From Comamonas granuli NBRC 101663 (GTDB taxonomy: Bacteria > Pseudomonadota > Gammaproteobacteria > Burkholderiales > Burkholderiaceae_C): DNA of 64,000 bases. The stretch spans positions 248,001-312,000 of the forward strand of contig NZ_BBJX01000005.1 in the NCBI RefSeq assembly GCF_000739995.1, in the 5' to 3' direction. The notes under the pieces were generated by a model. It did not search any database, was not told where the DNA came from, and saw only the letters and a program-made list of their open reading frames with translations. Shown piece after piece: positions 693-26,578 of the stretch (positions are counted from its first letter, which is position 1; each line of letters starts with the position of its first letter). The position numbers were made by a program, and so were the translations under genes.

Positions 693-1592
693 GTGCAGTT
701 CATTCCAGCGATTTGTCCACAATGCTCAGGGAAGCTGCAGGTGCCCGAAGGCAAGGATTCCGTGCAGTGCGAGTTCTGCGGTACCGACGTCTTCTTGCGT
801 GAGTCTGAGAAGACCGCTGCTAGCAAAGTTGTTCACCTGCTTGAGCTTGCCCAAGCGGCTGAGACTGCAGGCAACCACACAGAGGCGTTCGGGTACTTCA
901 CAAGCGTGCTTGAGATTGACAGCAAAAACGTTTGGGCATGGGTGGGCAAAGGAACAAGTGCCGGCTATCTCTCGACGCTTGCGCATTCGCGGATACCTGA
1001 AACCATCGAGTGCTACCGCACAGCAGTGCGGCTTGCGGGTGACGACGATGCAATCACGACAGTTGTGAGCATGGACTGCGCTGTCGCAGCTGTTCTCATT
1101 GCGAACGCTTATTTCCAGACCTCGCTGCAGCACACGATGCAGTTCATCTCTGTGCCCGACACGCCGTACGAGCACGCCACACGCTGCGTGGAAGCAGTAA
1201 AACTTTGCGAGTTTGCGCTATCGCTAGACCCGAACGTGCCTGGCGCCGCTTCATTTATCCATGACGTCGCTTCGCGGACGTTGAATGTCGGTAAGCTGTC
1301 TGCAGATGAGAAGGCATTTCTTGAAGGTGAGAGGAGCAAACACGCTAGTGCAGCGCCAAAACCGGCTACTACCGGCCCGGCAGTAGCGGGGACAGATGCG
1401 GGCAGCACGGGCGTTATGGTTGGTGTGTTCGGAGCTGCCTACGTTGCTTCGTACTTCATTCTGAAAGCGATGGGTGTACAGACGACGTTCTGGGCACTTT
1501 TTTGGGCGCTGTGGCTGTGCATCCCTATCGGTGGCGCGGTGGGAATCGGCTGCATCCTGGCAATGGCAAAGTTCGCTCACAAGAAAACCTAA
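693..1592 (+). CDS. zinc-ribbon / TPR-like / membrane-anchored protein of unknown function
   Basis: This 299-residue protein starts at GTG 693, with a GGGAG ribosome-binding site 7 nt upstream. Three parts are visible. An N-terminal zinc ribbon has CPQC at about residues 8-11 and CEFC at about 27-30. A helical middle resembles TPR repeats (AQAAETAGNHTEAFGYF, then alternating helices to about residue 200). A C-terminal hydrophobic hairpin spans about residues 240-295 and is probably two membrane segments. A low-complexity Ala/Thr/Gly linker separates the last two parts. I do not recognise a named family. Its G+C content is clearly lower than that of its neighbours, and it lies beside a transposase remnant and a duplicated gene fragment, which together suggest horizontal acquisition. 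The topology suggests a cytoplasmic sensor or adaptor tethered to the inner membrane, but that is inference. Confidence 0.75.
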   Translation: MQFIPAICPQCSGKLQVPEGKDSVQCEFCGTDVFLRESEKTAASKVVHLLELAQAAETAGNHTEAFGYFTSVLEIDSKNVWAWVGKGTSAGYLSTLAHSRIPETIECYRTAVRLAGDDDAITTVVSMDCAVAAVLIANAYFQTSLQHTMQFISVPDTPYEHATRCVEAVKLCEFALSLDPNVPGAASFIHDVASRTLNVGKLSADEKAFLEGERSKHASAAPKPATTGPAVAGTDAGSTGVMVGVFGAAYVASYFILKAMGVQTTFWALFWALWLCIPIGGAVGIGCILAMAKFAHKKT

Positions 1593-1672
1593 GAGGTCCA
1601 GTCGCTAAGGATACTCTGCACGAATCCCTGCGAGGCGTGACGGGGCGTGCTTGAAACCAAGACAATACCGGT

Positions 1673-1830
1673 ATGAAGCAAAGCAGCCTGGGCCTGAGCA
1701 ACACCGTCAAGCGCCCCCGCAAGCGCGAGTTCCTCGATGCCATGGAGTTGGTGGTACCTTGGGCCGAGCTGGTCGCGCAGATCGAGCCGTATGCCCCCGT
1801 GAAGAGCTTCCCTAACACCAGCGCCATTCT
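1673..1830 (+). pseudogene. IS5-family transposase, N-terminal remnant
   Basis: From ATG 1673 the translation begins MKQSSLGLSNTVKRPRKREF and continues to VPWAELVAQIEPYAP. This is the characteristic start of IS5-type DDE transposases, where KREFLDxMxxVVPW precedes IEPYxP. Homology stops after about 45 codons, and the reading frame then runs through unrelated sequence to a stop at 1900. No DDE catalytic region or right-hand inverted repeat is present. The A+T-richer stretch just upstream (about 1590-1672) could be the left end of the former insertion sequence, but I could not identify its terminal repeat with certainty. Confidence 0.75.
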
Positions 1831-1859
1831 AGGCAATCATCTCGAAGCCGCCTCGGCAG

Positions 1860-2306
1860 CTACAACCCCACACCACAATCCCCGCCGATTGGCGGTATGA
1901 CTGCTCACCTCCCGCCCTCCAAGCGGTGGGGCCTGCAAGCCATCCATCCCGCCTGCAGAACTCCAAATTTGATAGCTGCTAGCGCTTTACTATCAAGCGT
2001 TTGAGCCACTTTTTACCCCAAACCCCATGTCTTTCCCCGCTTTCCTGCGCACGCGCTGGACCGCGCTGCAGCCGGCAATGGCGCGCGTGCTGCGGCGGCC
2101 CGAGAAGCTGCTGTCGCTGCACAGCCTGCTCTGGGCGCTGATGGCGGGCGGGCTGGTGCTGATTCCGTTCACGCCGGGCATTCGCGATAGCCGCAAGGCC
2201 AAGACGGAGCAGCCGGCGCAGTTGGTAGCGGCGGATGGCAAGTTCTTTGCCGAGTACCGCTGGGTGAAACTGGGGCCTGGACTGGCGGCGCACGGCGTCG
2301 GCGCTG
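1860..2306 (+). repeat. left copy of a duplicated segment (pbp1A upstream region and 5' end)
   Basis: This segment repeats 2883-3433 with roughly 85-90 % identity by eye. The shared start is the CTACAACCCCACACC motif, and the repeat continues through the upstream region of the penicillin-binding protein gene and into its coding part. This copy lacks two internal blocks that the right copy has: about 21 bp in the membrane-anchor codons and about 83 bp corresponding to 3313-3395. Homology ends at GCGCTG (2301-2306). Confidence 0.85.
1965..2014 (+). repeat. dispersed ~55-bp repeat, copy 1
   Basis: Contains TTTGATAGCTGCTAGCGCTT followed by ATCAAGCGTTTGAGCC and a T-run. It matches the dispersed family seen at 14 places in this window. 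It is intergenic and was duplicated together with the surrounding segment (see copy 2 at 2989). Confidence 0.8.
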
Positions 2307-2323
2307 CTGATGCGTGTCCGTGA
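2027..2323 (+). pseudogene. truncated, decayed partial copy of the adjacent class A PBP gene
   Basis: The translation begins MSFPAFLRTRW and is nearly collinear with the first 80 residues of the intact gene at 3050. It keeps RPEKLLSLHSLLWALMA, IPFTPGIRD and KAKTEQPAQLVAADGK. Seven codons of the hydrophobic anchor are missing. After EYRWVK an 83-bp deletion shifts the frame, so the rest (LGPGLAAHGVGA) is the out-of-frame reading of the intact gene's coding sequence. No transglycosylase or transpeptidase motif survives. A peptide could still be translated, but it would have no enzymatic function. It probably arose by segmental duplication before the DUF4160/DUF2442 pair came to sit between the copies, or together with that event. 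Confidence 0.85.
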
Positions 2324-2337
2324 CGGTTAACCCGTCA
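2321..2337. repeat. short inverted repeat at the left edge of the DUF2442/DUF4160 insert
   Basis: TGACGG, a 5-nt spacer and CCGTCA form a near-perfect 17-bp palindrome that overlaps the stop codon of the DUF2442 gene. It lies just past the point where homology of the duplicated PBP segment ends (2306), so it may mark the boundary of inserted DNA or act as a weak terminator hairpin. Confidence 0.45.
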
Positions 2338-2592
2338 GCCTGCTGCGCCTGACACCAGTGGAAACGAGGACGGGTTGCGAATGGACTGCACCGACAGGTC
2401 GATGTCCAACATTGGCCAGTAAAGATGGTCAGGGCTCGGCCACTGAACTTCGGAAATCTGTTCGATCGTCCCCTTTCGGAACCAGGGGAATTGATCAAAG
2501 GGGACGAGCAGTTCCTCGTCGGCAAGCAGCAGCCAAAAACCGTGCTTTGAAATATGGGTGACTTCAGCCGCCAAAGTGGTGGGTCCAGGCAT
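2335..2592 (-). CDS. DUF2442 domain protein
   Basis: An 85-residue protein from ATG 2592. The pattern matches DUF2442: an N-terminal strand (AAEVTHISKHGFWLLLADEELLVPF), then FPWFRKGTIEQISEVQWPSPDHLYWPMLDIDLSVQSI. DUF2442 proteins are small, of unknown biochemistry, and very often encoded next to a DUF4160 protein, as here: its start overlaps the 3' end of the DUF4160 gene by 29 nt. The pair has the size and arrangement of a toxin-antitoxin module, but I know of no demonstrated activity. It lies between two copies of a duplicated chromosomal segment, which points to acquisition. Confidence 0.8.
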   Translation of the reverse strand: MPGPTTLAAEVTHISKHGFWLLLADEELLVPFDQFPWFRKGTIEQISEVQWPSPDHLYWPMLDIDLSVQSIRNPSSFPLVSGAAG

Positions 2593-2803
2593 TTTGGATC
2601 TCCTTCAGGTGTGCATTCACAACGGCTTGCGCTTGCCGAAGTTGGGTCTCGGAAAGACCCGTATGGTTGGCCAGAGCCACCTGTGGTGTCAGCCAGAACT
2701 TCGCTTCACCGTCCACGTGTGAGACATGCACATGAATGCGTGTCTCTTCCCGCGAAAAAAAGAAGAGACGAAAGGGGCCGTCACGAACAATGGTGGGTGC
2801 CAT
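2564..2803 (-). CDS. DUF4160 domain protein
   Basis: I place the start at ATG 2803, which gives a 79-residue protein beginning MAPTIVRDGPFRLFFFSREE. This is the hallmark DUF4160 N-terminus, followed by HVHVSHVDGEAKFWL and a C-terminal helix. A longer reading to 2896 adds 31 residues encoded near the duplicated segment without family resemblance, so I rejected it. The gene is translationally linked to the downstream DUF2442 gene (29-nt overlap). Function is unknown; DUF4160/DUF2442 pairs are widespread in accessory regions and are suspected toxin-antitoxin or regulatory pairs. Confidence 0.8.
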   Translation of the reverse strand: MAPTIVRDGPFRLFFFSREETRIHVHVSHVDGEAKFWLTPQVALANHTGLSETQLRQAQAVVNAHLKEIQNAWTHHFGG

Positions 2804-2882
2804 GGCGGTACTGTAACCAACACCGATCGCGGCGTGGATGCGCACCCGTCGCAAATTACGCATCCCGTGGCAGTCTTCGCCG

Positions 2883-3433
2883 CTACAACCCCACACCGCA
2901 ATTCCGGGCGATTGGCGGTATAACTGCGCACCTCCCGCCTGCCATGCGGAGGGGCCTGCAAGCCATTCACTCTGCCTGCAAGACTCCCAATTTGATAGCT
3001 TCTAGCGCTTACCCATCAAGCGTTTGAGCCACTTTTGACTCCAAACCCCATGTCTTTCCCTGACTTCCTGCGCACGCGCTGGGCCGCGCTGCGGCCGGTG
3101 TGGGCGCGTGCGTTGCAGCGGCCCGAGAAGCTGCTCTCGCTGCACAGCCTGCTCTGGGCGCTGATGGCGGCCGGGCTGGCGCTGCTGCTGTATGTGCTGG
3201 TGCTGATTCCCTTCACGCCGGGCATCCGCGACATCCGCAAGGCCAAGACGGAGCAGCCGGCGCAGTTGGTGGCGGCGGATGGCAAGCTGCTGGCCGAATA
3301 CCGCTGGGTGAACCGAGCGTGGGTGCCGCTTGCCGAGATCGCCCCGCCGGTGGTGGACGCGCTGATCGCCACCGAGGACCACCGTTTCTACAAGCACTGG
3401 GGCCTGGACTGGCGGCGCACGGCGTCGGCGCTG
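2883..3433 (+). repeat. right copy of the duplicated segment (intact pbp1A upstream region and 5' end)
   Basis: This is the partner of 1860-2306. It includes the upstream region with a TATAAC box at 2919-2924, a dispersed-repeat copy, and the first ~128 codons of the intact PBP gene. The intact reading frame marks this as the parental copy. Confidence 0.85.
2989..3036 (+). repeat. dispersed ~55-bp repeat, copy 2
   Basis: TTTGATAGCTTCTAGCGCTT, then CATCAAGCGTTTGAGCC and TTTTG. It sits directly in the 5' leader of the PBP gene, ending about 14 nt before ATG 3050. Confidence 0.8.
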
Positions 3434-8201: not shown

Positions 8202-9908
8202 ATGGACCAGGATTCTCTCTGGGCGCAGGGCGCCCAGCAGTGGCAGAAAATGTGGGGCGAGGGCTGGGCGCAGGCCCTGCAGACGCTCCAGGCAGCGCCG
8301 CCCGGCCCGGTGCCGGCCCCGGTGCCGGAAATCCGCTTTGCCCCCGACAAGCTCCAGGCCCTGCACCAGGAATACCTGCAGGAGGCCGCCCGGCTGTGGC
8401 AGCAGGGCCTGCGCGGTGCGCCACAGGCCGCCGCGGCCGACAAGCGCTTCACCGGCGAGGGCTGGGCGTGCAACCCCGTGGCCGCCTACACGGCGGCGGC
8501 CTACCTGCTCAACGCGCGTACCCTCATGGGCCTGGCCGACGCCGTGCAGGCCGACCCCAAGACGCGCGCGCGCATCCGCTTTGCGGTGGAGCAGTGGATC
8601 GCCGCCATGGCGCCGAGCAACTTCCTCGCCTTCAACCCCGATGCGCAGAAGAAAGCCATGGAGACCCAGGGCGAGAGCATTGCCCTGGGCGTGGCCAACC
8701 TGCTGCACGACCTGCGCCAGGGCCATGTGTCGATGACGGATGAAAGTCTGTTCGAGGTGGGCCGCAACGTCGCCACGACCGAGGGCGCGGTGGTGTTCGA
8801 GAACGAGCTGTTCCAGCTCATCGAGTACAAGCCGCTCACCGCCAAGGTGCACGAGCGGCCCTTCCTGCTCATCCCGCCGTGCATCAACAAGTTCTACATC
8901 CTCGACCTGCAGCCGGAGAACTCGCTGATCCGCTACGCGGTCGAGCAGGGCCACCGCACCTTTGTGGTGAGCTGGCGCAACCCCGATGAATCCCTGGCGC
9001 GCAAGACCTGGGACGACTACGTCGAGGACGGCGCCATCCGCGCCATCGAGACGGTGCGCCAGATCGGCGGCGCCGAGCAGATCAACGCGCTGGGCTTTTG
9101 CGTGGGCGGCACCATCCTGGGCACGGCGCTGGCCGTGCTCGCCGCGCGCGGCGCGCAGCCCGTGGCGAGCGGCACCTTCCTGACCACGCTGCTGGACTTC
9201 ACCGACACGGGCATCCTCGATGTGTTCATCGACGAGGCCATGGTGCAGTTCCGCGAAATGCAGATGGGCCAGGGCGGCCTGATGAAGGGCCAGGACATGG
9301 CCTCCACCTTCAGCTTCCTGCGCCCCAACGACCTGGTGTGGAACTACGTGGTGGGCAATTACCTCAAGGGCGAGACGCCGCCGCCCTTCGACCTGCTCTA
9401 CTGGAACAGCGACAGCACCAACCTGCCGGGCCCGTTCTACGCCTGGTACCTGCGCAACACCTACCTGGAGAACAATCTCATCAAGCCCGGCAAGCTCACG
9501 GTGTGCGGGCAGAAGATCGACCTGGGCCGCGTCACGCTGCCCGTGTACATCTACGGCTCGCGCGAGGACCATATCGTGCCGGCGCGTGCGGCCTACGCCT
9601 CCACCCAGGTGTTGCCGGGCGACAAGCGCTTCGTCATGGGCGCCTCGGGCCATATCGCTGGCGTCATCAACCCGCCGGCCAAGGGCAAGCGCAGCCACTG
9701 GATCCGCGCCGACGGCCAGCTCCCCGCCACGCTGGACGCCTGGCTCGAAGGCGCCACCGAGCACAAGGGCAGCTGGTGGCCCGACTGGGCCCAGTGGCTC
9801 CAGGCCCACGCAGGCAAGCTGGTGGCCGCGCCCAAGGCCTATGGCAAGGGCGCCCGATTCAAGGCCATCGAGCCCGCGCCCGGGCGCTACGTCAAGCAAA
9901 AGGCCTGA
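8202..9908 (+). CDS. phaC: class I poly(3-hydroxyalkanoate) synthase PhaC
   Basis: Polymerises (R)-3-hydroxyacyl-CoA into PHA at the granule surface. ATG 8202 is preceded by AGGAG; an in-frame upstream ATG at 8178 has no such site. The 568-residue protein has the N-terminal synthase domain (WQKMWGEGW..., FTGEGWACNPVAAYTAAAYL) and an alpha/beta-hydrolase domain. Its nucleophile is C300 in GFCVGG, the cysteine variant of the lipase box, with D456 in SREDHIVP and H484 in GASGHIAGVINPP, matching the known Cys-Asp-His triad. WWPDW near the C-terminus is also typical. It is the first gene of phaC-phaA-phaB; phaA follows 47 nt downstream. Confidence 0.96.
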   Translation: MDQDSLWAQGAQQWQKMWGEGWAQALQTLQAAPPGPVPAPVPEIRFAPDKLQALHQEYLQEAARLWQQGLRGAPQAAAADKRFTGEGWACNPVAAYTAAAYLLNARTLMGLADAVQADPKTRARIRFAVEQWIAAMAPSNFLAFNPDAQKKAMETQGESIALGVANLLHDLRQGHVSMTDESLFEVGRNVATTEGAVVFENELFQLIEYKPLTAKVHERPFLLIPPCINKFYILDLQPENSLIRYAVEQGHRTFVVSWRNPDESLARKTWDDYVEDGAIRAIETVRQIGGAEQINALGFCVGGTILGTALAVLAARGAQPVASGTFLTTLLDFTDTGILDVFIDEAMVQFREMQMGQGGLMKGQDMASTFSFLRPNDLVWNYVVGNYLKGETPPPFDLLYWNSDSTNLPGPFYAWYLRNTYLENNLIKPGKLTVCGQKIDLGRVTLPVYIYGSREDHIVPARAAYASTQVLPGDKRFVMGASGHIAGVINPPAKGKRSHWIRADGQLPATLDAWLEGATEHKGSWWPDWAQWLQAHAGKLVAAPKAYGKGARFKAIEPAPGRYVKQKA

Positions 9909-9955
9909 GGCCCGGCCGCCCCCATTTTTTCATTTCACTGCACAAAGGACACACC

Positions 9956-11134
9956 ATGGAAGACATCGTCATCGTTTCGGCCGCCCGCACGGCCGTGGGC
10001 AAGTTCGGCGGCGCGCTCGCCAAGACGCCCGCCACCGAGCTCGGCGCCATCGTCATCAAGGAGGCCCTGGCCCGCGCCCGCGTGGGCCTGGACCAGGTGG
10101 GCGAGGTCATCATGGGCCAGGTGCTGGCCGCGGGCGTGGGGCAGAACCCTGCGCGCCAGGCCATGATGAAGGCCGGCATCGCCAAGGAAACCCCGGCCCT
10201 GACCATCAACGCCGTGTGCGGCTCCGGCCTCAAGGCCGTGATGCTGGCCGCCCAGGCCATTGCCACGGGCGACAGCGAGATCGTCGTCGCCGGCGGGCAG
10301 GAGAACATGAGCCTCTCGCCCCACGTGCTCAATGGCTCGCGCGACGGCCAGCGCATGGGCGAGTGGAAGATGCAGGACACCATGATCGTCGATGGCCTGT
10401 GGGACGTGTACCACCAGTACCACATGGGCATCACCGCCGAGAACGTGGCCAAGCAGTACGGCATCACGCGCGAGATGCAGGACGCCCTGGCCCTGGCCAG
10501 CCAGCAAAAGGCCGCCGCCGCGCAGGATGCCGGCCGCTTCGCCGATGAAATCGTGGGCGTGAGCCTGCCGCAGAAAAAGGGCGATCCCCTGCTGTTCAAC
10601 GCCGACGAATACCTCAACCGCAAGACCAGCGCCGAGGCCCTGGCCGGCCTGCGCCCCGCCTTTGACAAGGCGGGCAGCGTGACGGCGGGCAACGCCTCGG
10701 GCATCAACGACGGCGCCGCCGCCGTGGTCGTGATGAGCGCGAAGAAGGCCGCCGCCCTGGGCCTGACGCCCCTGGCGCGCATCGCCGCCTACGCCACCAG
10801 CGGCCTGGACCCGGCGACCATGGGCATGGGCCCGGTGCCGGCCTCGCGCAAGGCGCTGGCGCGTGCGGGCTGGAGTGCCGCGGACGTGGACCTGTTCGAG
10901 CTCAACGAAGCCTTTGCCGCCCAGGCCTGCGCCGTGAACCAGGAGCTGGCCCTGGACCCCGCGCGCGTCAACGTCAACGGCGGTGCCATCGCCATCGGCC
11001 ACCCCATCGGCGCCTCGGGCTGCCGCATCCTCGTCACGCTGCTGCACGAGATGCAGCGCCGCGGCGCGAAGAAGGGCCTGGCGGCGCTGTGCATCGGCGG
11101 CGGCATGGGCGTCTCGATGGCGCTGGAGCGCTGA
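9956..11134 (+). CDS. phaA: acetyl-CoA acetyltransferase (beta-ketothiolase) PhaA
   Basis: Condenses two acetyl-CoA to acetoacetyl-CoA, the entry step of PHB synthesis. The 392 residues from ATG 9956 match the family length. EDIVIVSAARTAVGKFGG opens the N-terminal half. The acyl-accepting cysteine is C88 in NAVCGSGLKAV, and AGGQENMS follows. The C-terminal half carries NVNGGAIAIGHPIGASG (catalytic His) and LCIGGGMGVSMALE (second catalytic Cys). The gene sits between phaC and phaB in one transcription unit. A biosynthetic rather than beta-oxidation role is inferred from this context. Confidence 0.96.
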   Translation: MEDIVIVSAARTAVGKFGGALAKTPATELGAIVIKEALARARVGLDQVGEVIMGQVLAAGVGQNPARQAMMKAGIAKETPALTINAVCGSGLKAVMLAAQAIATGDSEIVVAGGQENMSLSPHVLNGSRDGQRMGEWKMQDTMIVDGLWDVYHQYHMGITAENVAKQYGITREMQDALALASQQKAAAAQDAGRFADEIVGVSLPQKKGDPLLFNADEYLNRKTSAEALAGLRPAFDKAGSVTAGNASGINDGAAAVVVMSAKKAAALGLTPLARIAAYATSGLDPATMGMGPVPASRKALARAGWSAADVDLFELNEAFAAQACAVNQELALDPARVNVNGGAIAIGHPIGASGCRILVTLLHEMQRRGAKKGLAALCIGGGMGVSMALER

Positions 11135-11240
11135 AGCGCCCGCCGCAGCGCGCCTCTCAGTGTTTACCTGGGCGGGCGCCTGCACCAAACTTGGGTAGAG
11201 TGGAAGCGCAATCGTTTGAAACCGTCAAGGAGCACAGGAG

Positions 11241-11978
11241 ATGAGTCAGAAAGTAGCGTATGTCACAGGCGGCATGGGGGGCATAGGCACCGCCATTTGC
11301 CAGCGCCTGCACAAGGACGGGTTCAAGGTGATCGCGGGCTGCGGCCCCACGCGCGACTACCAGAAGTGGCTCGATGAGCAAAAGGCGCTCGGCTACACCT
11401 TCTACGCCTCGGTGGGCAATGTGGGCGACTGGGATTCCACCGTGGAAGCCTTCACCAAGGCCAAGGCCGAGCACGGCAGCATCGACGTGCTGGTGAACAA
11501 CGCCGGCATCACGCGCGACCGCATGTTCGTCAAGATGACGCGCGAGGACTGGGACCAGGTGATCGAGACCAACCTCAACAGCATGTTCAACGTCACCAAG
11601 CAGGTGGTGGCCGACATGGTGGAAAAAGGCTGGGGGCGCATCATCAACATCAGCTCGGTCAACGGCGAGAAGGGCCAGGCCGGGCAGACCAACTACTCGG
11701 CGGCCAAGGCCGGCATGCACGGCTTTTCCATGGCGCTGGCGCAGGAGCTGGCCACCAAGGGCGTGACGGTGAACACCGTGAGCCCGGGCTACATCGGCAC
11801 CGACATGGTCAAGGCCATACGCCCGGACGTGCTGGAGAAGATCGTCGCCACCGTGCCCGTCAAGCGCCTGGGCGAACCCAGCGAGATCGCCTCCATCATC
11901 GCCTGGCTGGCCTCCGACGAGGGCGGCTACGCCACCGGGGCCGATTTCTCGGTCAACGGCGGCCTGCACATGGGCTGA
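11241..11978 (+). CDS. phaB: acetoacetyl-CoA reductase PhaB
   Basis: NADPH-dependent short-chain dehydrogenase that makes (R)-3-hydroxybutyryl-CoA for PhaC. The 245-residue protein has the TGGMGGIG nucleotide-binding motif at residues 9-16, NNAG, catalytic S139, Y152 and K156 (INISSVNG and YSAAK), and the C-terminal ASDEGGYATGADFSVNGGLHMG typical of PhaB. It lies 106 bp after phaA with its own AGGAG site 5 nt before ATG. The gap is large enough for a secondary promoter. A strong terminator follows. Confidence 0.96.
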   Translation: MSQKVAYVTGGMGGIGTAICQRLHKDGFKVIAGCGPTRDYQKWLDEQKALGYTFYASVGNVGDWDSTVEAFTKAKAEHGSIDVLVNNAGITRDRMFVKMTREDWDQVIETNLNSMFNVTKQVVADMVEKGWGRIINISSVNGEKGQAGQTNYSAAKAGMHGFSMALAQELATKGVTVNTVSPGYIGTDMVKAIRPDVLEKIVATVPVKRLGEPSEIASIIAWLASDEGGYATGADFSVNGGLHMG

Positions 11979-11993
11979 TCCGCCCGCCGGCTA

Positions 11994-12023
11994 CAAAAAA
12001 ACCCCGCGGCTGCGGGGTTTTTT
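11994..12023. terminator. bidirectional rho-independent terminator after phaB
   Basis: A-run, CCCCGC, a 4-nt loop GGCT, GCGGGG, then a T-run. The A-run and T-run make it symmetrical, so it can end both the pha operon (plus strand) and the dap/ABC-F unit arriving on the minus strand. Confidence 0.9.
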
Positions 12024-12065
12024 GTGGGGGCTCTTGCCGGCCCCGGGCGTTGGCCGGAACGTGGC

Positions 12066-12140
12066 TCAGAGGCGTGCGGGGGCACGCTTGCGGTCGCGCT
12101 CGTCTTCGGGCCAGGCGTTCAGGGTGAAAAAGGTGTTCAT
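12066..12140 (-). CDS. possible 24-residue small protein
   Basis: ATG 12140 is preceded by GGAG with 9-nt spacing. The peptide begins MNTFFTLNAWPEDERDRKR and ends after five more residues at TGA. A hydrophobic start is followed by a charged tail. It lies between the end of the ABC-F gene and the bidirectional terminator at 11994-12023, so it would be the last ORF of that transcript or an independent short unit. Nothing else coding is visible in this 354-bp gap. Without comparison it is only a candidate; the good ribosome-binding site is the main support. Confidence 0.4.
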   Translation of the reverse strand: MNTFFTLNAWPEDERDRKRAPARL

Positions 12141-12232
12141 GGCAAAAAGCTCCGTTGATGGCTCTACAACGCAGCGCCGTGCGCAGCCGTTGACAGCCCG
12201 GCAGGCTTTTTTTGCACGTCTCGTGCCGCCCA

Positions 12233-12290
12233 TTTTGCTCCTGAAAGCGTAGCTGCCAGCGCTTGCTGCAAAAGCCCTGGAGGCCAAAAA
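12233..12290 (+). repeat. dispersed ~55-bp repeat, copy 5
   Basis: TTTTGCTCCTGAAAGCGTAG, then CTGCCAGCGCTTGCTGC and AAAAGCCCTGGAGGCCAAAAA. It is intergenic, just downstream of the ABC-F gene. Confidence 0.8.
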
Positions 12291-12332
12291 CACCCGAAAT
12301 TCAGCACGGCCGCGGTGCGCGTGCCGGCTTTT

Positions 12333-14353
<2,021 letters not shown>

Positions 14354-19742: not shown

Positions 19743-19906
19743 GGTGCGCCATTATGAAAGATGGCGCGGCCCCGGCACGGCGCCGCCCGGGCCGGCGTGT
19801 AAGTTCAATGAAGGCTGGAGTTTCGACAATGGCCCACCCTTGCCGCCAGTGGCCCGCTCCCCGCCCCGCGCCACTGCCCTGCCGACATCACACCAAAGGA
19901 TTGCCC

Positions 19907-21427
19907 ATGGAGACTCATGATGCGCCCGCGCTGCTGCGGCCGGGGCTGTGGCTCATGCGCCGGTTCCGCCTTGCAGGGCAGTTGGCGCTGGTGGGGGTGG
20001 CGGTGCTGGGCCTGCTCGCCTTGCTGGCGCTGCTGGATCTCGCGGGCGCTGGCAGTGCCTGGTTCTGGCTGGTGCGCGGCGGCGGTGCGCTGGTGCTGCT
20101 GTACCTGCTGTGGTCCCTGCACGCCAGCCTGCACGGCGGGCTGCGGCAACTGGCGCAGCACATGGAGCGCTCGGCGCGCGGCGACCTGTCGGTGCACGTG
20201 GCCAGCCAAGGGCAGGACGAGGTGGCCGAGCTCATGCGCCTGCTCGACCGCATGGTGCAGACCCTCTCGGCCATGGTGGCCGACATCCGCAGCAACGCCG
20301 CACTGGTCGCCCAGGCCGGGCAGACCCTGGGGCGCGACAGCCGCGCGCTGTCCGAGCGCACCGAACAGCAGGCCGCCAACCTGGAGCAGACCGCCGCCAG
20401 CGTGGAGCAGATGGTGGGCACGGTGCAGGGCAATGCGCAGAGCGTGCGCGCTGCCGACGAGCGCGCCGCCCGCGTGAGCAAGGACGCCGCCGAGGGCGCG
20501 CGCGCCATGGAGCTCGCCGTGCAGTCGGTGCAGGCCATCCAGCAGAGCGCACGGCGCATGAACGAAATCATCGGCGTGATCGACGGCATCGCCTTCCAGA
20601 CCAATATCCTGGCCCTCAATGCCGCCGTGGAAGCCGCGCGCGCCGGCGAGCAGGGCCGCGGCTTTGCCGTGGTCGCCTCCGAGGTGCGCACCCTGGCAGG
20701 GCGCTCGGCCGAGGCGGCGCGCGAGATCCGCAACCTCATCGGTGCCTCGGTCGGGCAGGTGGAGACCAGCGCCGGCCTGATCGGCTCGGCCGGCCAGGGC
20801 ATGGCCCAGATGAACGACGCCATCCGCTCGCTGGCCGGTACCCTGTCCGAGATCGCCTCGTCCGACACCGAGCAGAGCACGGGCCTGCAGGAAATCGCCA
20901 CGGCGGTGCGCCAGCTCGACCACATCACCCAGCGCAATGCCCAGATGGTCGAGCACGCCGTGGCGCATGCGGCGGCGCTGGAGGGGCGCGCCAGCACCCT
21001 GGCGCGCGCGGTGGAGAGCTTTCGCCTGCAGCAGGGCACGGCCGACGAGGCCATGGCGCTGGTCGCCCAGGCGGCCGACCTGCACCGCCGGGTGGGGCGC
21101 GAGCAGTTCCTGCGCACGCTCACCGACCCCGCCCAGCCCTACCACGACCGCGACATGTACGTCTTCGCGCTCGATACCCAGGGCACCTACCTGGCCTTTG
21201 GCGGCAACCCGGCCAAGGTGGGCACGCGGGTGCGCGACATTCCCGGCATCGAGGGGGACCGGCTGGTGCACGACATCATCGCCCAGGCCGACCGCGAGCC
21301 CGGCTGGGTGGAGTACGGCATCCAGAACCCGGCCACGGGCACGGTGCAGACCAAGATGTCCTACGTCTGCCTGCTGGGCGACCTGTACGTGGGCTGCGGC
21401 GTCTACAAGACCCTGGCCGGCCGCTGA
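19907..21427 (+). CDS. methyl-accepting chemotaxis protein with C-terminal Cache domain
   Basis: The 506-residue transducer starts at ATG 19907. Two membrane helices (about residues 23-45 and 50-66) are joined by only a few residues, so there is no periplasmic sensor. A HAMP-like segment follows ([18 protein letters not shown]), then a signalling helix bundle with the hairpin tip [20 protein letters not shown] near residues 230-249. Unusually, residues about 405-506 form a Cache-like module ([57 protein letters not shown]) of the kind normally found outside the membrane. Here it would be cytoplasmic, after the signalling domain. The ligand is unknown. Confidence 0.9.
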
Positions 21428-21457: not shown

Positions 21458-22147
21458 TCAGGCGGCGCCGCGCAAGGCCCGGGCGCGCGCCAGGGCCGCG
21501 GCTATGGCCGCCTGGCGTGCGCCGGCGTCGGTGGCGGGGGCCGGCTGGGGCTCCTGCGGCGTGGGTGGGGCCGGCTCTGCCACGGCGGGCGCCGGCGGCG
21601 GCGGCGGTGGCTCTGGCGCGGCCAGGCGGGCGCTGCGGCGCGCATAGCGCTCGCGCGCTTGTTCGGCCTGGGCGGGCGACCAGGCCGCCCAGCCCGTGGC
21701 CGTGCCGCTGGCGTTGTAGGGAATGATGCAGTCGACCGGACAGGCGGGGATGCACAGCTCGCAGCCCGTGCAGTCCTGGGGCAGCACGGTGTGCATGTAT
21801 TTGCTGGCGCCCACGATGGCGTCGACCGGGCAGGCCTTGATGCACAGCGTGCAGCCTATGCACCAGTCTTCGTCGATGCGCACCAGGCTGCGCGGGCCTT
21901 CGTTGCCGCAGGCCGGGTCCAGGGGTAGCACCGGGCGGCCGGTGAGGGCGGCGAGCTGCTGCACGCCCTGCGCCCCGCCCGGCGGGCAGCGGTTGATGGC
22001 CGCTTCGCCTGCGGCCATGGCCTGGGCGTAGGCCGCGCAGTCGGCATAGCCGCAGCGCTGGCACTGGGTCTGGGGCAGGGCGTCCAGCAGGCGCTCGGCC
22101 AGGGAGGCCGCAGGCGGCCGGCCGGGCGCTGGCGCGCGCGCGCTCAT
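21458..22147 (-). CDS. RnfB-like iron-sulfur electron-transfer protein
   Basis: The 229-residue protein starts at ATG 22147, overlapping the phaZ stop (ATGA). The first part is the RnfB Fe-S domain ([20 protein letters not shown], then INRCPPGG). Next come two classical 4Fe-4S motifs, [16 protein letters not shown] and [16 protein letters not shown]. The C-terminal third is a Pro/Ala-rich tail of unknown use. The N-terminal membrane anchor of true RnfB/RsxB is missing, and no other rnf gene is in the window, so this is probably a soluble ferredoxin-like orphan. Coupling to phaZ suggests co-expression with PHB mobilisation. Confidence 0.88.
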
Positions 22148-23487
22148 GGGGTCTTGGCGGGCCGCTTGCGCGCGGGGGGGGCCGCGGGGGCCTCGGCCGT
22201 GGCGGCCGGTGCCGGGGCGGTGGCCGCCTGGTGTTCGCGGATGAAGTCGCGCACCTGCGGATATACCAGCTCGCGCCAGCGCCGTCCGCTGAAGATGCCG
22301 TAGTGGCCCGCGCCCGGCACCTCGAGGTGGCGCTGCTCCTTGCTGGCCAGGCCGGTGCACAGCTCGTGCGCGGCGCTGGTCTGGCCTATGCCGGCGATGT
22401 CGTCGAGCTCGCCCTCGATGGTGAGCAGGGCGCTGTGCGTGATGTCCTGCGGGCGCACGCGCTCGAGCTGACCCTCGGGCGAGCGCACATCCCAGGTGCC
22501 GTGCATCAGGCGGAATTCCTGGAACACCGTCTTGATGGTTTCCAGGTAGTAGTGGGCGTCCATGTCGAGCACGGCGTTGTATTCGTCGTAGAACTTGCGG
22601 TGCGATTCGGCGCTGCTGTCGTCGCCCTTGATCAGGTTCTTGAAGTAGTCGTAGTGGTTCACCGCGTGGCGGTCCGGGTTCATGGCCACGAAGCCCGCAT
22701 GCTGCAGAAAACCGGGGTACACGCGCCGGCCGGCGCCGGGGTAGTTCTCGGGCACGCGGTAGATCACGTTGTTCTCGAACCACTCGTAGCTGCGCTCGAT
22801 GGCCAGGTTGTTCACGGCGGTGGGGGTTTTGCGCGCGTCGATGGGGCCGCCCATCATGGTCAGCGACAGGGGCGTGGTCTCGCCGCGGCTGGCCATGAGG
22901 GAGACGGCCGCGAGCACCGGCACCGTGGGCTGGCACACGCTCACGACGTGGCAATTGCCGTAGATGCCCTGCAGGTGGCGGATGAAGTCCTGCACATAGT
23001 GCACGTAGTCGTCGAGGTGGAAGTCCCCTTCGGACAGCGGCACCATGCGCGCGTTCTTCCAGTCGGTGATGTAGACCTTGTGGTCGCTGAGCATGGTGCG
23101 CACGGTATCGCGCAAGAGCGTGGCGTAGTGGCCCGACAGCGGCGCCACGACCAGCACCACGGGCTGGGTCTTGAGCAGCTCCAGCGTCTTGGGATCGTCG
23201 GAGAAGCGCTTGAAGCGCCGCAGTTCGCAAAACGGCTTCTCGATCTCCACGCGCTCATGGATGGCCACCTCCACGCCGTTGACCGGCACCGTCTTGATGC
23301 CGAACTCGGGCTTCTCGTAGTCCTTGCCCAGGCGGTAGAGCAGGTCGTAGGCGGCGGAAATGCGCTGCGCCAGCGGCAGTTTCTGGAAGGGCGACAAGGG
23401 GTTGCTGTAGAACTTCGAGGCTGCGCGCGCAAAATCGGCAAAGGGCTCCATGAAGGAGCGCTGGGTTTCGAAAATCTGGTAGAGCAT
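22144..23487 (-). CDS. phaZ: intracellular poly(3-hydroxybutyrate) depolymerase PhaZ
   Basis: Degrades the storage polymer from the granule surface. I take ATG 23487 ([20 protein letters not shown]), the usual PhaZ start; an upstream in-frame ATG adds 9 residues. The 447-residue protein carries the cysteine nucleophile C185 in [17 protein letters not shown], corresponding to the known active-site Cys of Ralstonia-type Pha[19 protein letters not shown] and the C-terminal [17 protein letters not shown] (catalytic His) are also present. The Ala/Pro/Lys-rich tail after residue 420 is longer than usual. It complements phaCAB at 8202-11978, though not in the same operon. Confidence 0.94.
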
Positions 23488-23503
23488 GGAAAAATCTCTT
23501 ATG

Positions 23504-23514
23504 TTGCAGTGCAA
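23504..23514. promoter_or_regulatory. palindrome upstream of phaZ, possible PhaR-type operator
   Basis: TTGCA-G-TGCAA is centred about 22 nt before the phaZ start. Repressors of PHA granule genes (PhaR) are reported to bind TGC/GCA-rich palindromes, so an operator role is plausible. The assignment is by resemblance only. Confidence 0.3.
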
Positions 23515-23854: not shown

Positions 23855-26578
23855 ATGTCTCCAAGCCCTGCCTCAGCCGCCGAACTGCCGCCCGCCGCCG
23901 CGGGCCGCTGGGGCCGCCCCGGCTGGACGGCGGCCATGCTCACGGCGGTGCTGCTGTGCCTCACCCTGGCCTACTGGTACGCCGAGACCCAGGCCGAGCG
24001 CAGCCGCCGGCAGCAGGCCTTCACCCAGGCCGTGGACCGGATCGCCTTCAGCATCAAGGGCCGCATCGACACCTACCAAATGGTGCTGCGCGGCGTCAAG
24101 GGCTACTACGACGGGTCGGAGCAAATCGACCCGCACGAGTTCCACGCCTACGTGGATGCCCTGAACCTGCAGGACGCCTTGCCAGGCCTGCAGGGCATCG
24201 CCTACATCCGGCGCTTCACACCGGAGCAGGCGCAGGCCCTCACCGACCTGCGCATCCAGCCCGGCGGAGAGCGGGCGCAATACCTGCTCATCACGCACAT
24301 CGAGCCGAACGACGACATCAACCGCCGGGCGCTGGGCTATGACGTCTCCACGGTCCCCGGCGCACTGGAGGCCCTGGAGCGCGCGCGCGACACGGGCGAG
24401 CTGGCGCTGACCGCGCCCATCCCCCTGCGCCAGTACACCGCGGCCAGTGAGCGCCTGGGCATGGTGATGTACCTGCCCCTGTACCAGGGGGGCGTGCTGC
24501 CCGGCTCGGTGCCCGAGCGGCGCGCGCGCATCGTGGGCTGGGTGTCGGCGCCGTTTCGCATGCAAGAACTGTTGCAGGGCATGCGTCCGCAACTGGACCG
24601 CGACATCGACCTGGCCATCTACGAGGGCGACACCCTGGACCCCGCGCGGCGCCTGACCCCGCCGGCCAGCCTGCCCGACACCGATCTGCAGGAGACGCGC
24701 TGGATGGAGCTGGGCGGGCGCCGGTGGACCCTGGTGATGCGCCCGCTGCCCGGCTTCGAGGAGCGCCTGCAGGACAGCTCCGGACCGGGCATGGCCGCCC
24801 TGCTGGGCGCGGTGCTGAGCCTGCTGGTGGGCGGCCTGGCCTGGGTGCTGGCCACCGCGCGCGAGCGCGCCGTGGCGCTGGCGCTGCGCATGACCGACAC
24901 CCTGCGGCGCACGCGCGACGACCTGCAGGGCACGCTCAACGCCATCCCCGACCTGCTGTTCGAGCTCGGCCCCGATGGCCGCATCCACCACTGCCGGCCG
25001 GGCAGCGCGGCGCAGTCCCTGCCGGTCGCCGGCCTGGTCGGCCGGCGGCTGCAGGACGCTGTGGCCGAGGGCGATGCCGCTGCCTGCCGTGCGGCGCTGG
25101 AGGAGGCGGCGCGCAGCGGGCATGCGAGCGGCCAGGCCTTGCGCCTGGAGCTGGCCGGCCAGGCGCACTGGTTCGACCTGTCCGTGGCGCGCAAGGCGGC
25201 CGGGGCGCCGGGCCAGGAGGCGCAGCTCATCGCCCTGGCGCGCGACATCACCGAGCGCAAGCAGGCCGAGGCGCGCACCCACCAATTGGTCTATTTCGAC
25301 ACGCTCACGGGTCTGCCCAACCGGCGCATGCTGCTCGACCGGCTGGCCCACGCCCTGGCGTGGGCGCGCAGCGCGCACGAGGTGGGCGCCCTGCTGTTCA
25401 TCGACCTGGACAACTTCAAGCAGATCAACGACGCGCGCGGCCACCGCTTCGGCGACATGCTGCTGAACCAGGTCGCGCAGCGGCTGGGCGGCCTGCTGCG
25501 GCCCGGCGACACGCTGGCGCGGCTGGGGGGCGACGAATTCGTGCTGCTGCTCAACGACATCGCGCCCGATATGGAGAACGCCGGCCGCGGTGCCCTGCTG
25601 AGCGGGGAGCGCGTGCGCGCCGCGCTGGAGGAGCCCTACAGCATCGAGGCGCACGCCTACAGCAGCACGGCCAGCATAGGCATCACCCTGTTTCCCAAGC
25701 ACGGCGAGGGCGTGGAGGACCTGCTGCGCGAGGCCGACACGGCCATGTACCGTGCCAAGGACCTCGGGCGCAACCGCATCTGCTTCTACGAGGAGGCCAT
25801 GCAGGCCGACGTGCAGGAGCGCCTGGCGCTGGAGCAGGACCTGAAGAAGGCCGTGGGCGCGGGGGAACTGGCGGCCTACATCCAGCCCCAGGTGCGGCCC
25901 GACGGCACGGTGGAGGGCGGCGAACTGCTCATGCGCTGGAGCCACGCAGTGCGCGGCCCGGTGCCGCCTGCGCGCTTCATCCCGGTGGCCGAGTCTTCGG
26001 GCCTGATCCTGCGCATGGGCGACTGGATGCTGCAGCAGGCCTGCGAAACCCTGGCCCGCTTGCAGACCGCCGGGCGCCTGGTGTCGATTTCGGTGAACGT
26101 GAGCCAGCGCCAGTTCCGGCAGGAGGATTTCGTCGAGCGCCTGCGCGCCATGCTGGAGCTGACGGGCGCGCCGCCCGACCACTTGATCCTGGAGGTGACC
26201 GAGAGCCTGCTGATCGACGACCTGGACAACACCATCGCCCGCATGACCGAGCTGGTGCGCATGGGCCTGCGCTTTTCCATCGATGACTTCGGCACCGGCT
26301 ACTCCAGCCTGGCCTATCTCAAGCGCCTGCCGTTGTACGAGCTCAAGATCGACCGCAGCTTCGTGCAGGACGCGCCGGACGACCCCAACGACACGGCCAT
26401 CGTGCAATCCATTCTGTCGGTGGCGCGCCACCTCAAGCTGCGCGTGGTGGCTGAAGGGGTGGAGACGCAGGCGCAGGCCGACTTCCTCACCGCCAGCCAC
26501 TGCGACGGCCTGCAGGGCTACCTGTTCGGCCGGCCCGAACCCCTGGGCGCCTGGCTGCAGCGGCAGCTCGCATCCTGA
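23855..26578 (+). CDS. CHASE-PAS-GGDEF-EAL cyclic-di-GMP signalling protein
   Basis: The 907-residue protein from ATG 23855 has a membrane helix at about 25-42, a periplasmic CHASE domain (about 60-280, with GVKGYYDGSEQIDPHEF and LPGLQGIAYIRRF) and a second helix near 310-330. A PAS domain follows (about 350-460, TLNAIPDLLFELGPDGRIHH, ending in ARDITERKQAE). The GGDEF domain has an intact LGGDEF at 558-562. The EAL domain has ELL in place of EAL (690-692) but keeps EVTES, DDFGTGYSSL, LKIDRSFV and EGVET. Cyclase activity is expected; phosphodiesterase activity is plausible because the catalytic Glu is kept. The CHASE ligand is unknown. Confidence 0.92.
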   Translation: MSPSPASAAELPPAAAGRWGRPGWTAAMLTAVLLCLTLAYWYAETQAERSRRQQAFTQAVDRIAFSIKGRIDTYQMVLRGVKGYYDGSEQIDPHEFHAYVDALNLQDALPGLQGIAYIRRFTPEQAQALTDLRIQPGGERAQYLLITHIEPNDDINRRALGYDVSTVPGALEALERARDTGELALTAPIPLRQYTAASERLGMVMYLPLYQGGVLPGSVPERRARIVGWVSAPFRMQELLQGMRPQLDRDIDLAIYEGDTLDPARRLTPPASLPDTDLQETRWMELGGRRWTLVMRPLPGFEERLQDSSGPGMAALLGAVLSLLVGGLAWVLATARERAVALALRMTDTLRRTRDDLQGTLNAIPDLLFELGPDGRIHHCRPGSAAQSLPVAGLVGRRLQDAVAEGDAAACRAALEEAARSGHASGQALRLELAGQAHWFDLSVARKAAGAPGQEAQLIALARDITERKQAEARTHQLVYFDTLTGLPNRRMLLDRLAHALAWARSAHEVGALLFIDLDNFKQINDARGHRFGDMLLNQVAQRLGGLLRPGDTLARLGGDEFVLLLNDIAPDMENAGRGALLSGERVRAALEEPYSIEAHAYSSTASIGITLFPKHGEGVEDLLREADTAMYRAKDLGRNRICFYEEAMQADVQERLALEQDLKKAVGAGELAAYIQPQVRPDGTVEGGELLMRWSHAVRGPVPPARFIPVAESSGLILRMGDWMLQQACETLARLQTAGRLVSISVNVSQRQFRQEDFVERLRAMLELTGAPPDHLILEVTESLLIDDLDNTIARMTELVRMGLRFSIDDFGTGYSSLAYLKRLPLYELKIDRSFVQDAPDDPNDTAIVQSILSVARHLKLRVVAEGVETQAQADFLTASHCDGLQGYLFGRPEPLGAWLQRQLAS

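Follow-up and report, generated by a model that had tools for sequence, protein, structure and literature searches.

A chemoreceptor with a predicted cytoplasmic, C-terminal single Cache domain recurs in Comamonas and related bacteria

The window analysed here, a stretch of 64,000 nucleotides from Comamonas granuli NBRC 101663, encodes a methyl-accepting chemotaxis protein with a membrane anchor, a HAMP domain, and an MCP signalling domain. This receptor is predicted to be membrane-anchored and to carry a cytoplasmic single Cache domain (sCache_2) fused to the end of its second signalling helix. Our confidence in the architecture and in the location of the parts is high. Many related bacteria have the same arrangement and so probably steer by something in their own cytoplasm. 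A sequence-only reading of this DNA had noticed a chemotaxis transducer with a Cache domain after the signalling domain, and Pfam, AlphaFold2, and fold comparison confirmed this observation as a whole. The receptor offers a compact natural system for studying how a PAS-like domain could drive a chemoreceptor from the other end, and such a conserved and widespread clade bears on whether bacteria steer by intracellular metabolites.

The receptor frame is open over 506 residues in the window (Table 1). Starting from the in-frame ATG at 19754 would lengthen the protein by 51 residues, but in most aligned relatives the start lies near 19907. The HAMP, MCPsignal, and sCache_2 matches are all above their own curated Pfam cut-offs, with 152.3 bits against 34.6 for MCPsignal (PF00015, residues 186-341) and 42.4 bits against 25 for sCache_2 (PF17200, residues 391-500); dCache_2 also matches, at residues 415-501. 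All 50 aligned relatives match MCPsignal and sCache_2 at E 0.001, and 37 of them match HAMP. The N-terminus ahead of TM1 is rich in Arg ([12 protein letters not shown]), and the hydropathy of TM1 itself is strong (2.62). TM2 is weak in the window receptor (best 19-residue mean 1.58), and its median over 140 receptor frames, duplicates included, is 2.19. The full-length AlphaFold2 model, a monomer built with 50 sequences (mean pLDDT 85.4, pTM 0.56), has membrane helices at residues 22-45 and 50-90, the latter being TM2 running into HAMP, hairpin helices at 105-245 and 247-369, and Cache elements at 379-500. Just residues 46-49 separate the membrane helices, too few to accommodate a periplasmic sensor. 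The earlier description of two adjacent membrane helices followed by HAMP and a signalling bundle, with the periplasmic sensor absent, thus agrees with Pfam and the structure model. The tip motif region of the hairpin covers residues 233-254, tip residues are largely invariant in the alignments, and Glu/Gln pairs are visible in both signalling helices ([26 protein letters not shown]). The genome itself has 8 CheW-domain matches, all above the cut-off; one lies in a CheA-sized frame of 817 residues adjoining another CheW-domain protein, and we infer from its size and position that this frame encodes CheA.

Table 1. Coordinates in the window of the receptor, its predicted parts, and two neighbouring genes
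Feature	Position	Strand	Basis or remark
Chemoreceptor gene, 506 aa	19907..21427	+	open reading frame
TM1, residues 22-45	19970..20041	+	hydropathy, AlphaFold2
TM2, about residues 50-72 (end estimated, helix continues into HAMP); Arg57 inside	20054..20122	+	hydropathy, AlphaFold2
HAMP domain, residues 77-121	20135..20269	+	Pfam, 36.5 bits
Cytoplasmic signalling hairpin, residues 122-369	20270..21013	+	Pfam, AlphaFold2, alignments
Predicted C-terminal single Cache (sCache_2), residues 379-500	21041..21406	+	Pfam, AlphaFold2, fold comparison
Pocket Tyr418 (PscD Tyr90), Phe420 (Trp92), Leu422 (Asn94), Phe431 (His103)	21158..21199	+	alignment
Pocket Tyr470 (PscD Tyr143), Ile472 (Trp145), Lys483 (Lys156)	21314..21355	+	alignment
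Cys497, last strand (GCGVYK); Cys in 101/103 C-terminal Caches	21395..21397	+	alignment
rnfB/rsxB-like gene, convergent	21458..22102	-	upper end approximate, chosen by us
phaZ, polyhydroxyalkanoate depolymerase	22144..23514	-	NCBIfam TIGR01849, 569.6 bits

In descriptions of prokaryotic sensing, Cache domains figure as the main extracellular sensors. The families are principally extracellular in the passages cited here, the exceptions being Diacid_rec and YkuI_C (PMC4822843). The C-terminal module of our receptor is predicted to have a Cache fold. AlphaFold2 modelled residues 344-506 from 67 sequences with a mean pLDDT of 88.3, the Cache blocks being mostly at 93-98. The top Foldseek entries were sCache_2 domains (4exo/2qhk, TlpB, 5g4y, and Adeh_3718, i.e., 4k08), and VIA-align 2, with candidates taken from Foldseek's own list, gave Z scores of 13.9 for 2qhk (122 residues, rmsd 3.0), 13.4 for 4k08, 13.1 for 4exo, and 12.9 for 5g4y. 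Going by its structure title, we take 5g4y to be PscD. A search of PDB sequences with the module returned weak matches alone, the best being 4exo at E 0.054, and a viral fold search had one match under E 0.001, to an uncharacterised Pandoravirus protein, which provided no lead. The Cache assignment made from the sequence is therefore backed by the profile match over its cut-off, by structure prediction, and by fold comparison. The module had been placed at residues 400-506; it is indeed there, with a start some 20 residues earlier, at about 379.

PscD belongs to the same family and has the fold predicted here, as do McpP, Adeh_3718, and 2qhk, and its pocket provides a reference. According to the passage cited, the PscD residues holding the carboxylate are Tyr90, His103, Tyr143, and Lys156, with Trp92 and Trp145 forming a sandwich around it (PMC5062169). 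We carried this numbering over by motif via the two periplasmic sCache_2 receptors of the same genome, not via the PscD sequence; these two receptors, which are stronger matches, keep Y/W/N/H/Y/W/K. The equivalents of Tyr143 and Lys156 fall within [12 protein letters not shown] and KMSYV, the motifs that the first reading had singled out as Cache features. We counted pocket residues in 103 unique modules, having dropped the three with spacing 147-158 from a set of 106. Tyr418 and Lys483 are present in all of them and Tyr470 in 102, and the replaced sites have Phe431 in 102, Phe420 in 101, and Ile472 in 88. Hence, three of the four carboxylate-holding residues are kept and His103 has become Phe; both Trp92 and, in most modules, Trp145 are replaced too, by Phe and Ile, respectively. 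Five divergent C-terminal Caches have the Lys in 5/5, the equivalent of Tyr90 in 4/5, that of Tyr143 in 3/5, and Phe for His103 in 1/5. Judging from these alignments, the main-clade pocket is uniformly remodelled toward hydrophobic residues, not lost. We infer that the ligand would be a small anion with a body larger or more hydrophobic than acetate; the change from His103 to Phe may also mean that carboxylate binding was lost. Six genomes of the genus have a paralogous clade of receptors with a C-terminal Cache (L035-L040); in the five that were counted, Val occupies the Trp145 site and Phe the Asn94 site.

A search with the C-terminal module matched 35 of 60 related genomes at E 0.001. The module is found in 21 of 25 genomes of the same genus (E 3.3e-51 or better, 20 in a receptor frame) and in 6 of the 10 other genomes of the family (E 3.2e-48 or better), and this recurrence led us to reject chance or a local fusion artefact. 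Among these 27 matches, 26 lie in a frame that also has the tip motif; the frame is split in G023 (L007). One same-genus genome (G005) has a stand-alone Cache only, and three others (G019, G020, and G025, which are 64, 61, and 84% complete) lack a match to the module. Relatives are encoded by 397 stretches in named genomes, and the best 80 of these stretches were kept. These come from Acidovorax, Paracidovorax, Simplicispira, Giesbergeria, Diaphorobacter, Alicycliphilus, Comamonas, Extensimonas, Oryzisolibacter, Curvibacter, Hylemonella, Hydrogenophaga, and Rhodoferax, the remainder being loosely named metagenome genomes. Partly on the basis of tree labels, we take all of these genera to be Comamonadaceae. 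Isolates having the receptor belong to Acidovorax, Simplicispira, Paracidovorax, Hydrogenophaga, Comamonas, and Curvibacter. Across the phylum, 67 of 398 genomes surveyed match at 1e-10, and among the loci fetched the receptor form was present in seven same-family genomes besides the original one and in G043 (L032) and G200 (L172); loci L162-L171 and L173-L182 are not of the receptor form. Among the ten plasmid relatives listed, out of 1774 matching records, the match stops before or within the Cache, and the furthest-reaching one (H8, on a Rhizobium plasmid, to residue 492) has no Cache by profile.

The spacing between the tip and the Cache is nearly constant: across 106 unique modules it is 138 in 77, 139 in 25, and 140 in one, with single outliers at 147, 155, and 158. 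Mean pairwise identity was computed on 44 of the 50 aligned receptors, leaving out L034 and five paralogues. It is 34.9% for the N-terminus and membrane helices, 43.4% for HAMP, 70.0 and 65.0% for the outer signalling helices, 89.6% for the tip, 62.4% for the Cache helix, and 76.8% for the Cache core. Conservation among the 80 named loci is inflated, since these were the highest-scoring of 397. In nine genomes, hand-picked among those with a periplasmic identity of 60% or more (paralogues may mix in below that value), the periplasmic sCache_2 receptor is about as conserved as the C-terminal-Cache one. The identities to the window's copies, C-terminal/periplasmic, are 88/76 in G003, 78/65 in G007, 72/64 in G006, 73/62 in G010, 63/60 in G011, 74/76 in G015, 72/75 in G004, 68/69 in G012, and 70/67 in G017. 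Conservation thus does not single out the C-terminal-Cache receptor, and the level seen in its Cache appears to be that of a working sensor, not an exceptional one. Seven loci encode receptors that apparently have two sensors, with membrane peaks some 260-290 residues apart and a C-terminal Cache (L071 at 9980-12343, minus strand; L072 at 8401-10716, plus strand; L042, L136, L143, L151, and L153); Pfam names no periplasmic domain in the three scanned, L042, L071, and L153. In a Giesbergeria metagenome genome (L076, 4893-6411), receptor and Cache lie in two overlapping frames, a split that is due to a frameshift or an assembly error.

We built a quick tree of 84 rows and 136 columns, with SH-aLRT support only and a midpoint root, in which two receptor-type periplasmic Caches were included; its limits are long branches and few columns. 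A set of 43 C-terminal modules makes up one side of a branch with 96% support (91% with L046), nested among stand-alone Cache proteins, and the two receptor Caches of the same genome sit on a long branch. This grouping does not favour the relocation of a periplasmic Cache within a receptor, and the likeliest origin, as far as such a tree can tell, would be the capture of an exported single-Cache protein. Three loci encode receptors with a C-terminal sCache_2 at the other spacings of 147, 155, and 158 (L045 at 1850-3409, plus strand; L073 at 10678-12267, minus strand; L172 at 1489-3039, minus strand). Their Caches are outside the main clade, and they may represent independent captures, giving several captures overall. 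The closest non-receptor Cache sequences are the stand-alone proteins (L033, L041, L043, and L162-L165), which are not fused to a receptor, have about 150 aa and apparent signal peptides, and occur in several groups of the phylum. Two nearby cysteines in each of L041, L033, and L043 could form a disulphide. The pocket His is kept in 7/7 stand-alone modules checked and absent in both modules of the tandem protein L047 (2901-3785, plus strand). Like L047, the proteins encoded at L167, L175, L176, and L179-L181 are about 280-330 aa long, carry single Caches in tandem pairs, and lack a receptor domain; several of this tandem set have an apparent signal peptide.

The N-terminal 21 residues contain four Arg, the loop at 46-49 carries no charge, and there is no membrane segment beyond HAMP; both termini are therefore predicted to be inside, which places the C-terminal module in the cytoplasm, as initially proposed. 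The opposite topology, with the Cache facing the periplasm like other Cache domains, would fit the 78% of Cache domains that are confidently predicted to be extracellular in the passages cited (PMC4822843), the N-termini of the closest non-receptor relatives, which by eye resemble signal peptides, and the position of Arg57 near the outer end of TM2. The Arg residues at the N-terminus and their absence from the loop speak against it, as do the HAMP and MCP domains that directly precede the Cache, the need of the signalling domain to contact CheA/CheW in the cytoplasm, and the presence of Cys497 in nearly all relatives. A reversed topology is thus very unlikely. The proposal that the Cache stands at the distal end is not supported: the second hairpin helix returns toward HAMP and equals the first in length, with about 124 residues leading from HAMP to the tip (122-245) and about 123 leading back to where the second helix ends (247-369). 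Since the arms of this antiparallel hairpin are of equal length, the Cache is predicted to lie beside HAMP, near the membrane, a placement drawn from helix lengths in a monomer model of modest pTM. The signalling helix is joined to the first Cache helix by about 4-9 residues (375-378 in the shorter model, 370-378 in the full-length one). At the corresponding place in Tar and Tsr, the passages cited describe about 35 residues of unstructured linker and a pentapeptide that binds CheR (PMC7390727). The NCBIfam citrate-transducer model aligns over positions 204-526 of 553 with receptor residues 63-384, which puts the Cache at the point where such a tail would start. The pentapeptide pattern occurs at the C-terminal end of 0/103 relatives, and no CheR tether was thus seen there.

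We consider it reasonably probable, from the sequence evidence above, that the receptor is a membrane-anchored sensor of a cytoplasmic small organic acid acting through sCache_2. The Cache, beside HAMP and in the place of the flexible tail of Tar/Tsr, would bind a small organic acid, or a similar cytoplasmic anion tolerating a pocket more hydrophobic than that of PscD. Binding would repack the helix bundle at its membrane-proximal end and thereby change CheA activity, in a way similar to that suggested for sensors with a C-terminal CZB, and the outcome would be taxis guided by internal metabolism. The sensing of an internal metabolite, suggested in the sequence-only reading, is therefore plausible. 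In an unlikely alternative, the Cache would be not a ligand sensor but a structural or protein-docking cap in place of the flexible CheR tether; it might form dimers, hold the hairpin together at its open end, or serve as a docking site for an adaptation enzyme or partner. The near-fixed junction without a flexible tail, the missing pentapeptide, and the loss of the canonical pocket His are what such a cap would lead one to expect, but Tyr418, Tyr470, and Lys483 are not obviously needed by a mere cap, and the replacements at 431 and 420 are themselves uniform. It is less likely still that the stimulus (membrane state, proton-motive force, pH, temperature, or redox) is sensed by the membrane helices and HAMP, with the Cache tuning the signal. 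Two bare helices with a four-residue loop are as an energy-taxis receptor might have them, and the conserved Cys497 could respond to redox. However, the N-terminus and membrane region are the least conserved part of the protein, far below the Cache core, and L071 and L072 have a long stretch between their membrane helices and yet keep the Cache.

C-terminal ligand domains are already known in chemoreceptors. In the passages cited, receptors with a C-terminal ligand-binding domain form a subfamily that is poorly characterised and comprises at least 17 domain types, CZB being the most populated (Ortega & Krell 2020, PMC7390727). Our receptor resembles them in that a single chain carries the sensor domain behind the signalling domain, with ligand binding predicted here, and differs in its missing pentapeptide. 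Membrane-bound chemoreceptors with a C-terminal CZB dominate one cluster in a second source, in the part cited, and these and TlpD share the C-terminal position of the sensor (PMC8262984). The difference is that CZB binds zinc, whereas our receptor carries a PAS-like Cache, and CZB is absent among the nine Pfam families listed for it up to E 1. Unlike the periplasmic Caches of PscD, McpP, Adeh_3718, and 2qhk, the domain is predicted to be cytoplasmic and C-terminal here. Among the titles and abstract openings listed from openly licensed literature, we found no description of a chemoreceptor with a C-terminal sCache_2, and this clade may be undescribed.

Downstream of the receptor gene, and tail to tail with it, are the rnfB-like gene and phaZ. 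Among the best 80 of the 397 loci, phaZ is present in 70 and rnfB in 70 of the 77 with at least 2.3 kb downstream, and dapC is upstream in 55 of 73. The 71 loci with both flanks include 51 with both phaZ and dapC, 14 with phaZ without dapC, 3 with dapC without phaZ, and 3 with neither. Around paralogue L038, neither phaZ nor any other PHA gene was seen by eye among the listed ORFs. As the genes are convergent, they have no shared promoter, and an operon of the receptor with phaZ/rnfB was rejected. The proximity of phaZ hints at a link, and inherited gene order would give the same pattern; the storage link raised by the sequence-only reading is positional only, and we regard a connection to PHB storage as doubtful. 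In its boldest form, a lineage-wide receptor class would have captured an exported single Cache, internalised it, and rebuilt its pocket, and Comamonadaceae would steer by an internal metabolite, with phaZ suggesting a product of PHB mobilisation (3-hydroxybutyrate or acetoacetate). This full scenario is a long shot, and the choice of these two ligands from storage breakdown is a guess from gene position. If true, the sensing of PHB products would couple carbon storage to motility. Near the receptor, the window also encodes a CHASE-PAS-GGDEF-EAL protein of 907 aa (23855-26578, plus strand), likely a cyclic-di-GMP enzyme with an outside sensor.
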